Position numbers and translations under genes: made by a program
The notes under the pieces: generated by a model
The model's input: only the letters and a program-made list of their open reading frames with translations
Databases searched by the model: none
What the model was told of the DNA's origin: nothing
Part shown: positions 20,911 through 47,350 of the stretch, piece by piece
Position numbering within the stretch: position 1 is the stretch's first letter
Layout: every line of letters starts with the position of its first letter
Virus record (IMG/VR): IMGVR_UViG_3300025108_000004
Span: 1-60,188 of that record
Length of the DNA stretch: 60,188 bases
Direction: 5' to 3' (one strand)
DNA from: a virus

Positions 20911-21126
20911 TTATCCAGCGGATACAGTCAGAACGCCTGAGTTGCTATACAGTTGACCTGCAACAGAAGGATCAGCGGTTGGTAAGTCTTTGAAGATGAT
21001 GACGCTGTTCGTGCCGTCGTGAGTAATAGAAATGTTCTCAGTGACGGTGCCAGTGTTATCAGCTTTAGTAATGTCCTTAAAGCCATTCTCCGAACGGACT
21101 GGACCTTGGAAAGTAGTATTAGCCAT
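20911..21126 (-). CDS. Small beta-rich virion protein
   Basis: 71 aa: MANTTFQGPVRSENGFKDIT, then NISITHDGTNSVIIFKDLP and a Gly/Ser/Val tail. The MANTTFxGPVRSxxGF opening recurs in marine phage capsid neighbourhoods. It is the first gene after the terminator that follows the capsid gene. A decoration or head-fibre role is likely but unproven. AGGAG precedes the ATG at normal spacing. Confidence 0.6.
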   Translation of the reverse strand: MANTTFQGPVRSENGFKDITKADNTGTVTENISITHDGTNSVIIFKDLPTADPSVAGQLYSNSGVLTVSAG

Positions 21127-21151
21127 GTGAATCTCCTGTCTCGGCTAGTGT

Positions 21152-21170
21152 CAGTTACGGGATGTAACTG
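21152..21170. promoter_or_regulatory. Inverted repeat CAGTTAC-N5-GTAACTG
   Basis: A 7-bp perfect inverted repeat lies between the capsid terminator and the 71-aa gene. It could be an operator or an mRNA 5' hairpin for the segment downstream of the terminator. No clear promoter is paired with it; a TTATAA-like element lies at about 21185-21190 on the minus strand. Confidence 0.4.
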
Positions 21171-21196
21171 TCAGGGATTCATTTTTTATAACACAC

Positions 21197-29741: not shown

Positions 29742-29771
29742 TTGATTTGTTATCACATGATACGGTTTAAT
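29742..29771 (+). promoter_or_regulatory. Candidate early promoter (TTGATT-18-TTTAAT)
   Basis: TTGATT at 29742-29747 and TTTAAT at 29766-29771, spaced 18 nt, lie upstream of the first rightward gene. The predicted start falls near 29778, about 30 nt before the inverted repeat at 29808. Moderate match only. Confidence 0.4.
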
Positions 29772-29807
29772 GGCTCTGCCTTCAGGGGAAACCCTATCGG
29801 CGCAATC

Positions 29808-29857: not shown

Positions 29858-30499
29858 ATGAACGATTCAATCGTAACCCGCTCGTTAAATTCAGAATTGA
29901 GCACTCTGATCACCAAATCTACTGCGGCTGATTTACGCAGTGAGGAACAGCGTTTCGCACTGCTGTGCAGTATGAAAGACGCCGGTTTCGAGTTTGCTAT
30001 TAACGTGAAAGCGTACGACCCCGAGGCCAACCCGCTCGGTGCTACTAAACCCGAACGTGAATTCCTACGGGATGCGGTGATAAAGGGTTTACCGAAACAC
30101 GCGCAAGAAATCCTCGCACTAGGTAAAGCGGGGATGAAGAGAAAGACGGACTGCGCTTCCGTAAAGAAATCGGAATTGACTACTGGCAATTGGGTTTACT
30201 GGAATAAACAACCCGCCTCACGGCTTAGTAAAATCGCGGCCAAATTGGACTCAGTTGTATGGTCCGATGAATTGCCAGTGTTCAAGAATGGTGAGGCAGT
30301 CGAAGATGAGTTCACATCTGGGTGGGTATATGAAAAAGACCTACCCAATAGCGGTGATGCTCAGACTCCTAAAACCTCTAGGACAAAAATTCTAGAGGCG
30401 CTCGCTAAAGCGGTAGCGATCTGCGAGAAGGATGAAACGCCCGACTACGATGCCACTAGCATCAAAAAGGCCATCAACGCAGTGATCAAATCACTCTAA
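29858..30499 (+). CDS. First early gene, unknown function
   Basis: 213 aa starting MNDSIVTRSLNSELSTLITK. Helical and charged; contains KPEREFLRDAVIKGLPKHAQ, a Lys-rich centre, WVYWNKQPASRLSKIAAKL, and a helical C-terminus that ends KKAINAVIKSL. No domain is recognised. It is promoter-proximal, preceded by the inverted repeat and followed at once by a strong terminator, so it is a stand-alone early transcript. Such genes often act on the host or regulate the phage. Function is unknown. Confidence 0.75.
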   Translation: MNDSIVTRSLNSELSTLITKSTAADLRSEEQRFALLCSMKDAGFEFAINVKAYDPEANPLGATKPEREFLRDAVIKGLPKHAQEILALGKAGMKRKTDCASVKKSELTTGNWVYWNKQPASRLSKIAAKLDSVVWSDELPVFKNGEAVEDEFTSGWVYEKDLPNSGDAQTPKTSRTKILEALAKAVAICEKDETPDYDATSIKKAINAVIKSL

Positions 30500-30737: not shown

Positions 30738-30753
30738 GTGCCCGTCGTTTGAT

Positions 30754-30962
30754 ACCAGTTATATCCGTTGCGCCGAGCCTCATCGCGTTGCGCCTTGTGA
30801 TGCCAGTTAATGATGTCGCGCCGAGCCTCACGTGTTATCACGTATGCGTGACGTGGGCCCGGGTCCGGGGTAAATGGTAGTCCGTGGACTACCAAGTTGA
30901 GACCAGTTATAGATGTCGCGCCGAGCCTCACCCTGACGTGTTGCCACGTATAGGCACGTGGT
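30754..30962. repeat. 29-bp direct repeats and CACGT hairpins
   Basis: A 29-bp element (ending GCGCCGAGCCTCA) occurs at 30754-30782, 30802-30830 and 30902-30930. After copies 2 and 3 comes a hairpin ACGTG-N4-CACGT (30830-30843; 30936-30949) followed by a CACGTGG- or GACGTGG-type end, so the last two copies form longer units 100 bp apart. No coding explanation is convincing. Confidence 0.85.
30876..30893. promoter_or_regulatory. 18-bp inverted repeat, copy 2 (GT centre)
   Basis: GGTAGTCCGTGGACTACC, located between repeat units in the noncoding region. It is not next to a gene start. Confidence 0.85.
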
Positions 30963-30984
30963 AGCACGTCATGACACAAAAACA

Positions 30985-31373
30985 TAATGTTCGTTTTTTC
31001 TTTTGTAATGTTCGCGGTAATGTTCGTAATGTTCGGCTAATGTTCGCTTTTTTTAGAGCATGTGCGAACATTATATTTTCGTGGCAAATGATGAGCGCGA
31101 ACGCGCAAGGTTGCCAATTCTTGCCTATCAAAACTTTACATATCTTATCAATCTATCAATCTATCTATAATGTTCGTTTTTTAGAAAATTACACGCTTCT
31201 GTAAACGTAACACTAATTCTATTGTTCGTTTTCCAGTCGTTCGAGAGAACTCTCTCAGGGTAGCTCTTATCTCCGTCAAAAAGCGAACATTAGAACATTA
31301 CTTGTAAATCAAAAACTTACGCCATTTCAAAAACGAACATTACAAGAACAATACACAATACAACAGAACATTA
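30985..31373. repeat. TAATGTTCG iteron array (candidate replication origin)
   Basis: The 9-mer TAATGTTCG occurs exactly at 30985, 31006, 31018, 31027, 31038 and 31168. Its complement CGAACATTA occurs at 31065, 31284 and 31334. One-mismatch forms lie near 31220, 31292 and 31365. Five forward copies cluster within 62 bp. The surrounding DNA is AT-rich with T-runs. Iterons plus AT-rich DNA at the start of the replication-side operon fit an origin or a cluster of regulator sites. Confidence 0.75.
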
Positions 31374-31399
31374 CACTTCTACCCACGTTTTGTAATAAC

Positions 31400-31428
31400 T
31401 TGACATCATCTGTCACTTATGAGATAAT
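31400..31428 (+). promoter_or_regulatory. Strong sigma70-like promoter (TTGACA-17-GATAAT)
   Basis: A perfect -35 TTGACA (31400-31405), 17-nt spacer and GATAAT -10 (31423-31428; five of six). The start is expected at about 31435, exactly at the base of the hairpin below. It drives the unit starting with the 311-aa gene. Confidence 0.8.
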
Positions 31429-31433
31429 AATAC

Positions 31434-31504
31434 AACTGGGGGGTCGTACGTGTGTTTCCCACGCCTGTACATGTTTACACGCGTCACGCTACGGCCTCCC
31501 AGTT
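31434..31504 (+). ncRNA. Structured 71-nt leader or small RNA
   Basis: Ends pair: AACTGGGGGG (31434-31443) with CCTCCCAGTT (31495-31504), 10 bp including one G-U. The helix continues through U44-G94, CGTA/TACG (45-48/90-93) and CGTG/CACG (49-52/85-88) with one bulged C. Inside are ACGC/GCGT (61-64/81-84) and TGTA/TACA (66-69/76-79), a C-C mismatch and a 6-nt loop. The helix begins at the predicted transcription start. It could stabilise or regulate the mRNA, or be a separate RNA. Not a known family that I recognise. Confidence 0.55.
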
Positions 31505-31512
31505 CTAACCAC

Positions 31513-31530
31513 GGTAGTCCACGGACTACC
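31513..31530. promoter_or_regulatory. 18-bp inverted repeat, copy 3 (AC centre)
   Basis: GGTAGTCCACGGACTACC, between the structured leader and the ribosome binding site (GAGGAG) of the 311-aa gene. Confidence 0.85.
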
Positions 31531-31559
31531 AACTACAACAGTGTTCGAGGAGAACGACT

Positions 31560-32495
31560 ATGTTACACAATGATTCAGTAGTCCACGGACTACCTACTAA
31601 CGAAACAGCACCAGCTATCAGTGCACCATCGACACCTTCGATTGCATCCTCTGCAATGCTAGTAGAGGTCAGCTTCTCTACGTGGACAGGGCGCAAGCTC
31701 GACAAGCGTGCATCGACTGACGTGACACGGACCAACGGTGCTGACTCCGGTATCGCTAACGTGCACAAGAAACTGCTAGGCAACTGTGACGAGTTAACAG
31801 CCGTTCAAAAGTTCGCGGCTAACGCACGTAACATTCACTACTCGATGACCATGCCGTGGTCTGATACAGGTATGCGCCTACTACCTACCGCCATGTATGC
31901 CAAATACCACAGCGCGATGACCGACTTCCAAAACGAGTTCGAGCGTTTGGCCCAAGTATTCATCAGCGCGTACGAGTGGGAGATCAGCCAAGCCCAAGCA
32001 CGTTTGGGTGCGTTGTTCAGCCGTGACGACTATCCCTCTGCCGATTCCATCGCATCTAAGTTCGGGTTTCGTATTAACTACTTACCGCTACCTGACGCGG
32101 GGGACTTTCGTGTTGACGTGGGCAACGACGCGCGTGATCAGTTGGTTGACCACTACAACGCGCAGTACAGCGGGTTCTTGGAGCGGGCCATGTCTGACGT
32201 GTGGCACCGTGTGTACGACTCACTCACTAAGATGTCAGAGCGTCTCGACTACGGTGACCACGAGAAGAAAAAGATATTTCGTGACTCGCTCGTGGACAAC
32301 GTGCTCGACATGGTGGATCTGCTCGACGTGTGCAACGTGACCGGTGACTCTCAGATGTCAGCTATGCGGCTACAGCTTGAGGATGCGCTTCGTGGGGTGA
32401 CACCGGACGCACTACGTGATGACGCGTTTCTACGTGCTGAGACTAAGCGCGCTGTGGACAGTGCCATCAAGTCTCTACCATCACTCGATATCTAA
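31560..32495 (+). CDS. 311-aa protein of MoxR/VWA module (DUF3150-like)
   Basis: The ATG at 31560 is preceded by GAGGAG at good spacing. The N-terminal about 32 residues are Ser/Ala/Pro-rich and include a stretch (SVVHGLP) encoded by a further copy of the inverted repeat. The body (VEVSFSTWTGRKLDKRAS, RLLPTAMYAKYHSAMTDFQNEF, FGFRINYLPLPDAGDFRVDV) is helical. The sequence style and the position before a MoxR ATPase and a VWA gene resemble DUF3150 proteins, which occur in such modules; resemblance is from memory. Function is unknown. Confidence 0.6.
   Translation: MLHNDSVVHGLPTNETAPAISAPSTPSIASSAMLVEVSFSTWTGRKLDKRASTDVTRTNGADSGIANVHKKLLGNCDELTAVQKFAANARNIHYSMTMPWSDTGMRLLPTAMYAKYHSAMTDFQNEFERLAQVFISAYEWEISQAQARLGALFSRDDYPSADSIASKFGFRINYLPLPDAGDFRVDVGNDARDQLVDHYNAQYSGFLERAMSDVWHRVYDSLTKMSERLDYGDHEKKKIFRDSLVDNVLDMVDLLDVCNVTGDSQMSAMRLQLEDALRGVTPDALRDDAFLRAETKRAVDSAIKSLPSLDI
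31577..31594. promoter_or_regulatory. 18-bp inverted repeat, copy 4 (one mismatch), inside the coding start
   Basis: AGTAGTCCACGGACTACC, first base different from the consensus. It lies in codons 6-12 of the 311-aa gene, 46 bp from copy 3's right end, so two copies bracket the ribosome binding site. Confidence 0.8.
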
Positions 32496-36471: not shown

Positions 36472-36495
36472 GGGGAGCTTCGGCTCCCCTTTTTT
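36472..36495 (+). terminator. Rho-independent terminator with UUCG loop
   Basis: GGGGAGC-TTCG-GCTCCCC stem then six Ts, 15 nt after the 100-aa gene stop. It ends the MoxR/VWA transcription segment. Confidence 0.93.
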
Positions 36496-42014: not shown

Positions 42015-42416
42015 ATGAGTGAAGAAGCAGGGTTGGCTGAGAAGCTAACACGCGTTTACCTAAAGATCCGCGACGAGAAAGCCAAGCTATCTGCGGAGTA
42101 TAAAGAGAAGGAGTCCAGCCTTAACCAACAAATGGATAAGGTGAAGACCGCCCTACTCGATTACTGCAAAGATCATGGTCTCGAAAGCGTCAAAACTTCT
42201 GAAGGACTCTTTTACCGTTCGGTAAAGACAAGGTACTGGACCAGCGACTGGGAGCAAATGCACAAGTTTGTGCTTGAGCATGAAGTTCCTGAGTTTATGG
42301 AAAAGCGCCTTAACCAAGCCAACGTGAAAGCGTTCCTCGAAGAGAACCCCGACATCGTACCTAAAGGTCTCAATGTCGATTCTGAATACACCATAGCAGT
42401 GAGGAAAAAATCATGA
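42015..42416 (+). CDS. 133-aa coiled-coil protein of replication region
   Basis: The start ATG 42015 has GAAGGAGAC upstream and is preferred to an earlier in-frame start at 41973. First half a charged coiled coil (LTRVYLKIRDEKAKLSAEYK, KESSLNQQMDKVKTALLDYC). The second half (WTSDWEQMHKFVLEHEVPEF, RLNQANVKAFLEENPDIVPK) has a folded look. Encoded between helicase and HTH/SSB genes, so it is a probable DNA-metabolism partner. No family is recognised with confidence. Confidence 0.6.
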   Translation: MSEEAGLAEKLTRVYLKIRDEKAKLSAEYKEKESSLNQQMDKVKTALLDYCKDHGLESVKTSEGLFYRSVKTRYWTSDWEQMHKFVLEHEVPEFMEKRLNQANVKAFLEENPDIVPKGLNVDSEYTIAVRKKS

Positions 42417-42730
42417 ACGGTCCGTTTGTGCCAATTGAAGATCTGTCCAAGCACTTCTCTGTATCTGTATCTACGATCAGAGGCTGGGTGCGTAAGGGAC
42501 ACATTCCCAAGAACACCTACATAAAAGTAGGTAACACCTATCGGTTTTCTATTGCCGATGTATCTGAAGCCCTGACTCAACAGCACAACGATGTTGTTTC
42601 GTTTAACGAAGCACTGGGTGTTGATGTAGCTCAGATTACGGTTGATGGTCTAGAAGCTCAAGCAGAGGTTGATAAGTCTGATGAGCATTGGGCTGACATG
42701 TTTACCGCTCCTATTGACGATGATGTCTGA
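42413..42730 (+). CDS. Helix-turn-helix regulator (excisionase/MerR-like fold)
   Basis: 105 aa. Winged-HTH pattern: FVPIEDLSKHFSVSVSTIRG, WVRKGHIPKNTYIKVGNTYR, FSIADVSEAL. This resembles helix-turn-helix_17 proteins (excisionase-like DNA binders). The C-terminal 50 residues are acidic. ATGA overlap with the previous gene. Could act as transcription regulator or recombination accessory; no integrase is present, so a transcription role is more likely. Confidence 0.7.
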   Translation: MNGPFVPIEDLSKHFSVSVSTIRGWVRKGHIPKNTYIKVGNTYRFSIADVSEALTQQHNDVVSFNEALGVDVAQITVDGLEAQAEVDKSDEHWADMFTAPIDDDV

Positions 42731-47227: not shown

Positions 47228-47320
47228 TAGCGTGTTTACGACAGTTAGTGTTTGTGTACCCCTTACGCTTCTGTCGTTCTCCTCGCCCTACTTGACGGCT
47301 TCGAAAAGTATGTGGCTTTA

Positions 47321-47350
47321 CCCCCTTTGGTCCCCCGAAGGGGGTTTTTT
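47321..47350 (+). terminator. Terminator of the rightward unit (converging point)
   Basis: CCCCCTT (47321-47327) pairs with AAGGGGG (47338-47344) over a 10-nt loop, then six Ts. A shorter CCCCC-GAA-GGGGG stem is also possible. It lies between the convergent units and overlaps the stop of the leftward giant gene by two bases. Confidence 0.8.

Follow-up and report, generated by a model that had tools for sequence, protein, structure and literature searches.

A covarying RNA hairpin flush with the predicted start of early transcripts in a group of uncultured phages

Introduction

RppH and RNase E require single-stranded 5' ends (PMC3997798). Stem-loops of the ompA/papA type have their stem within a few nucleotides of the 5' end, are situated 5' of the ribosome binding site and separate from it, and depend more on pairing than on sequence. 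A different structured RNA, put of phage HK022, is about 70 nt long and follows directly after the early promoter, once per early operon, with a terminator further downstream. It is composed of two tandem stem-loops that extend from A3 to C72, and putL, of about 73 nt, starts at about +2 (PMC9378689). The lambda nut and rrn boxB-boxA leaders also have a promoter-proximal hairpin.

In this study a hairpin at the predicted 5' end of an early phage transcript (leader 1) was analysed in IMG/VR virus record IMGVR_UViG_3300025108_000004; the whole stretch of 60,188 nucleotides is referred to as the window. The hairpin resembles the ompA/papA type in the three respects named above, its distance from the 5' end being predicted here. 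It differs from that type in that it is a covarying family element on two early transcripts, is up to 71 nt long, and has a second hairpin nested within it, with GAGA frequent at the tip. It is like put in length, in being structured, in place, in number per early operon and in the presence of a downstream terminator, whereas it is one nested stem and its stem sequence drifts freely. The nut and rrn leaders share the promoter-proximal hairpin with it, but only in the relative L105 is this followed, after a palindrome, by a perfect rrn-like boxA.

Results

Promoter and fold of leader 1

The whole window was scanned for promoters that either had 11/12 matches or more, or combined TTGACA with 10/12 or more. 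Across the 60 kb a single near-consensus sigma-70 promoter passed, at 31400-31428, where a near-perfect one had been predicted (11/12 matches; TTGACA at 31400-31405, a 17-nt spacer, GATAAT at 31423-31428, and TG before the -10 box). All 16 related virus records searched had at least one promoter by this measure, and 13 had exactly one. The start predicted from the promoter and the base of the hairpin are flush, and the stem opens at 31434.

The fold of 31434-31504 has an energy of -39.0 kcal/mol and beats dinucleotide shuffles (n=200; -20.35 +/- 2.84 kcal/mol) by 18.7 kcal/mol, none of the 200 being as good (z -6.57). In the outer stem 31434-31448 pair without interruption with 31490-31504 (15 pairs, including two G-U), and 5 more pairs (31450-31454 with 31485-31489) follow beyond a bulge at 31449. 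A 6-nt bulge on the 5' side (31455-31460) separates it from the inner hairpin, in which 31461-31464 and 31466-31469 pair with 31476-31479 and 31481-31484 (4+4 pairs) around a 6-nt loop (31470-31475). The original prediction of a helix of about 19 bp with a wobble-rich joint, a bulge and a 6-nt-loop hairpin was right (20 outer and 8 inner pairs), as was its view that the pairing exceeds chance. An intrinsic terminator or attenuator was rejected, since a U run is absent 3' of the stem, where the flank reads CUAACCACGG.

A covariance-model search of Rfam 15 left the leader unmatched at the gathering score; at E<=5 only opposite-strand microRNA models appeared, far under their cut-offs. Leader 1 is thus an RNA element absent from Rfam, and it is supported by the covariation described below.

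The early operon

The inverted repeat and the MoxR/VWA operon that had been noted 3' of the leader are both present (repeat at 31513-31530; Table 1). The Shine-Dalgarno sequence at about 31548 lies some 45 nt past the hairpin and does not pair with it. Behind the gene at 31560-32495 come those of a MoxR-type AAA ATPase and of a DUF2201/VWA protein. The early mRNA has the DUF3150, MoxR and VWA genes first and, after them, the genes for nuclease, DNA polymerase, helicase and primase. The terminator at 36472-36489 separates the first gene block from the nuclease-polymerase block; from the 31400 promoter up to the genes for polymerase, helicase and primase no promoter above 10/12 was found. This terminator is kept, with changed stems, among the close relatives of the W/A clade. 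A mid-operon terminator was found in this 71-nt-form clade only, a distribution confounded by kinship.

Table 1. Coordinates of features in the window, and leader groups among the relatives.
Feature	Position	Strand	Description
Predicted early sigma-70 promoter	31400..31428	+	TTGACA-17-GATAAT, 11/12 matches
Leader 1, 71-nt 5'-terminal RNA hairpin	31434..31504	+	20-bp outer stem and nested inner hairpin
Inner nested hairpin of leader 1	31461..31484	+	
Phage-specific palindrome copy	31513..31530	+	GGTAGTCCACGGACTACC, in leader past hairpin
First operon gene	31560..32495	+	311 aa, weak sub-threshold DUF3150 match
Mid-operon intrinsic terminator	36472..36489	+	GGGGAGCTTCGGCTCCCC-TTTTTT, before replication genes
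Operon-end intrinsic terminator	47320..47345	+	-19.3 kcal/mol with T run
Weaker conserved promoter, second early unit	29742..29771	+	TTGATT-18-TTTAAT, from comparing relatives
Leader 2, 5'-terminal hairpin	29777..29802	+	transcript of ORF 29858-30499
Leader group W/A			69-71 nt, nested hairpin; window, L011-L019, L097
Leader group B			about 60 nt; L020-L049, L099
Leader group B'			inner hairpin lost; L022, L026, L031, L044
Leader group E			small hairpin, tip GGGAGA(U/C)CC; L094, L095, L104, L113, L116, L125, L129
Other leaders			short hairpins, e.g. GGCU-GAGAGAUUU-AGCC (L058)

Distribution among relatives

The 311-aa protein of ORF 31560-32495 has 141 relatives in IMG/VR, all on uncultured virus contigs, and the loci of 80 of these were read. 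Most showed the same kind of promoter (TTGACAT...ATAAT) and, directly after it, a hairpin whose sequence was quite different. More distant members, which share the terminase and portal genes, were added by searching with a degenerate promoter pattern. In the L082 and L093 clusters the promoter was present and the hairpin absent, and some further relatives had neither clearly. Unrelated contigs with the same promoter pattern mostly lacked such a hairpin.

Model R1 scored 66.5 bits against the window leader, which is among its own members; searches with R1 and R2 found no second copies in the same records, and neither model found the members of the other. A nucleotide search of named phages gave no homologous leader and only a short coding match to Parabacteroides phages. 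The nearest named terminases are those of pelagiphages and of phage DSL-LC04 (42-47% identity), which points to a largely marine environment for the phage family. The promoter-hairpin unit was absent from the stretches read of HTVC023P, 023Pt_psg01 and DSL-LC04, which comprised all but the last 11-12 kb of the first two. A search of bacterial genomes for DUF3150 relatives as a clue to the host found none.

Covariation, position and strand

Alignments were built with RNA-folded consensus structures. In alignment A1 (group W/A, 9 sequences) 7 pairs were changed on both sides, in 17 such cells; 0/500 shuffles reached the cell count or the covariation score, and 6/500 reached the pair count. Two members, the window and L013, do not form the inner helix in its A-type register; the window pairs there in another register. 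In alignment A2 (group B, 13 sequences) 8 pairs showed both-side change, in 18 cells (0/500 shuffles), and 98.9% of the cells were paired. When the partner was slid by 1-3 columns this fell to 37-69%, and in both alignments the slid structures lost the covariation signal. The compensatory changes by which the original prediction was to be checked are thus abundant in two separate alignments, by cell count and by score.

In 19 of 25 leader clusters, against 3.8 expected, a stem with 6 or more pairs opened 5-9 nt after the -10 box; the nominal p of 2e-11 is generous, as the clusters (below 80% identity) are not fully independent. In these 19 the stem base was at the predicted start +/- 2 nt, in keeping with the spacing of about 0-4 nt of protective stem-loops. 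The coincidence of the outer base with the predicted transcription start, which had been pointed out for the window, therefore recurs across divergent lineages. At paired columns 71 GU cells were counted against 5 AC cells. This indicates that selection appears to act on the plus-strand RNA. The sense fold was the more stable in 38/42 leaders, a comparison that favours sense because the regions were picked on the sense fold. What these computations show together is an RNA structure that is conserved on the plus strand and has its base at the predicted start.

Natural deletion, folding order and tips

In the B' leaders the inner hairpin has been lost together with the old 3' arm. Their 5' arm, GGUGAGAGG, pairs instead with CCCUCUUCAUC, which derives from the pyrimidine tract left unpaired in group B. 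This implies that the outer stem covering the 5' end is the part that is kept; the inner hairpin, having been lost in four lineages, is probably dispensable. When prefixes of the 71- and 60-nt forms were folded, the first 30-40 nt usually folded provisionally into a hairpin, which the full stem then replaced. In these large forms the 5' arm commonly paired provisionally with the pyrimidine tract, less clearly so in L013 and L012. GAGA occurred near the hairpin tip in 11/25 leader-1 clusters against 0.77 expected; the large forms (window and group B) have no common loop sequence.

A second early leader

The weaker conserved promoter lies ahead of the orthologs of ORF 29858-30499, and about 6 nt after its -10 box comes a hairpin (leader 2). 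In the window the fold of leader 2 has an energy of -11.1 kcal/mol (z -2.79). Compensatory stem changes were found among the orthologous leaders, with 86% of cells paired and 18 both-side cells (0/2000 shuffles); the alignment was made by hand and fitted to the structure, which favours these paired-cell statistics. The tip keeps a purine-rich loop (GGGGAAAC, GGGAGACA, GGGGGAAC). Pairing rather than sequence is conserved in leader 2 as in leader 1 (A1 and A2), the pattern that characterizes protective stem-loops. A hairpin constant in shape and variable in sequence opens each of the two early messages in the window phage, as it does in the relatives that were checked for this.

Palindromes and other features of the region

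The palindrome GTAGTCC-nn-GGACTAC has 8 exact 16-bp copies in the window (29809, 30877, 31514, 31578, 32519, 33635, 35211 and 36510), mostly just before early-gene Shine-Dalgarno sequences. In corresponding places the relatives carry 3-12 copies of another palindrome, with arms identical within a genome (among them GTTAGGG, GTTAGTG, TTATAACA, GTCTACA, GTATACA, GTGTAGG and TTTCCTAC). The palindrome is switched between genomes even where the flanking genes are about 99% identical (window versus L012). From their sequences these palindromes look like switchable operators of 15-18 bp at early gene junctions, comparable to mycobacteriophage stoperators. A small MerR/HTH_17 protein (42413-42730 in the window) was found in 15/16 related records searched. 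It was rejected as the reader of the palindromes, its recognition helix being nearly invariant across palindrome classes. The two palindromes that flank the start codon of ORF 31560 (31513-31594) are able to pair with each other at the RNA level, with the ribosome binding site enclosed between them.

In the non-coding stretch 30984-31374, upstream of the promoter, TAATGTTCG(T)n is repeated many times in either orientation. This stretch is located near the cumulative GC-skew minimum and is a candidate replication origin. Three 40-nt repeats (ACCAGTTA...CGCGCCGAGCCTCA) occupy 30743-30930, and similar units occur in L037. At 21124-21176 on the minus strand, just downstream of the major head gene, the Rfam family RF03012 (Mu-gpT-DE RNA) was matched at 69.3 bits. 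A second TTGACA promoter is present between the DUF3150 and MoxR genes at L100 9147, L104 10449 (reverse complement) and L129 4373; an inverted repeat, which reads TAGTATCC...GGGATACTA in L100 and L104, runs across its -10 box.

When the leaders were scanned over 130 nt for boxA (YGCTCTTWA), the only perfect match was that of L105, where hairpin, palindrome and CGCTCTTTAACAATT occupy 1702-1780; the window had none. L033 matched with one mismatch, and so did the leader at the second promoter of L046. A boxA as a shared feature of the leaders was accordingly rejected, and among the proteins scanned none was N-like.

Discussion

The original prediction had proposed a functional structured leader. 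Its structure is borne out by the compensatory changes and the recurring flush position; as to its function, we infer that the leader hairpin protects the early mRNAs against 5'-end-dependent decay, an explanation whose chances we consider even. The first nucleotides would be double-stranded from the start, by which the triphosphorylated end would become a poor substrate for RppH and the paired 5' end a poor one for 5'-tethered RNase E. With access of both enzymes reduced, the long early mRNA would live longer, and in the 71- and 60-nt forms the provisional hairpin made by the first 30-40 nt would cover the 5' end early. Protection is favoured because the constant features are the pairing of the first transcribed bases and the position at early transcript starts. 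Of the three functions suggested beforehand a stability element is hence the best supported, at the strength just given. A riboregulator of the classical translational type is unlikely, given the distance of the Shine-Dalgarno sequence from the hairpin, and nothing was found to support a small RNA cleaved from the leader. Against protection stand the L082 and L093 clusters, which have the promoter but no hairpin, and the further relatives in which neither is clear.

The recurrent GAGA tip is the one feature that plain protection leaves unexplained, as a simple shield needs no particular loop. Together with the purine-rich loop of leader 2 it hints at recognition by something. This tip is also in line with a cis-acting antiterminator like put, in which the nascent leader would bind RNA polymerase and cause read-through of a terminator toward the replication genes. 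Leader 1 is early-promoter-proximal, about 70 nt long and in cis, with the location and size of putL; elements are found on two early transcripts, as are putL and putR, and the conserved terminator at 36472-36489 stands downstream of the promoter and ahead of the genes for polymerase, helicase and primase. Its topology differs, however, being one stem with a nested hairpin rather than tandem stem-loops, and in the relatives with short hairpins a second hairpin in tandem was mostly not beyond chance. Similarity to a known put in sequence or structure was not found, R1 and R2 having no match in the HK022 early region (L135). Moreover, general mid-operon terminators that need read-through are absent from the groups other than the 71-nt clade, so that read-through of this terminator cannot be the general role, and a strong terminator still closes the operon at 47320. 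A put-like action is the main rival of protection, but a doubtful one. We likewise give only a small chance to the idea that the leaders of this widespread lineage form a new antiterminator RNA family, structurally unlike put, that would act in cis and without a factor at the start of both early transcripts and read through the pre-replication terminator.

Somewhat improbable too is that an RNA-binding protein, of the phage or of the host, has its site in the hairpin and regulates the early mRNA through translation, decay or polymerase pausing. The purine-rich tips conserved in leader 2 and in 11/25 leader-1 clusters would suit such a site, but the large forms share no loop sequence, the Shine-Dalgarno sequence is outside the hairpin and no candidate partner emerged.

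That the inverted repeat acts as DNA, as a replication-origin cruciform or a protein site, is very improbable. Repeats of AATGTTCG in both orientations adjoin it and the cumulative GC-skew minimum is near, yet the bias of GU over AC cells and the better folding of the sense strand (regions chosen on the sense fold) disfavour a DNA-level cruciform, and the repeat is locked to the promoter wherever it is found. A chance structure or by-product of promoter-proximal composition, although the initial transcribed region is GC-rich, is refuted at this level by z -6.6, by covariation in independent groups (A1 and A2), by the 19/25 flush stems and by the rarity of such hairpins in unrelated contigs with the same promoter pattern.

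The element is common to dozens of uncultured phages, each with essentially one recognisable early promoter. If it were antiterminating, it would be a second, independent solution to the problem that put solves. If, as we favour, it stabilises the mRNA, 5'-end protection would be under sustained selection in the early transcription of these phages.
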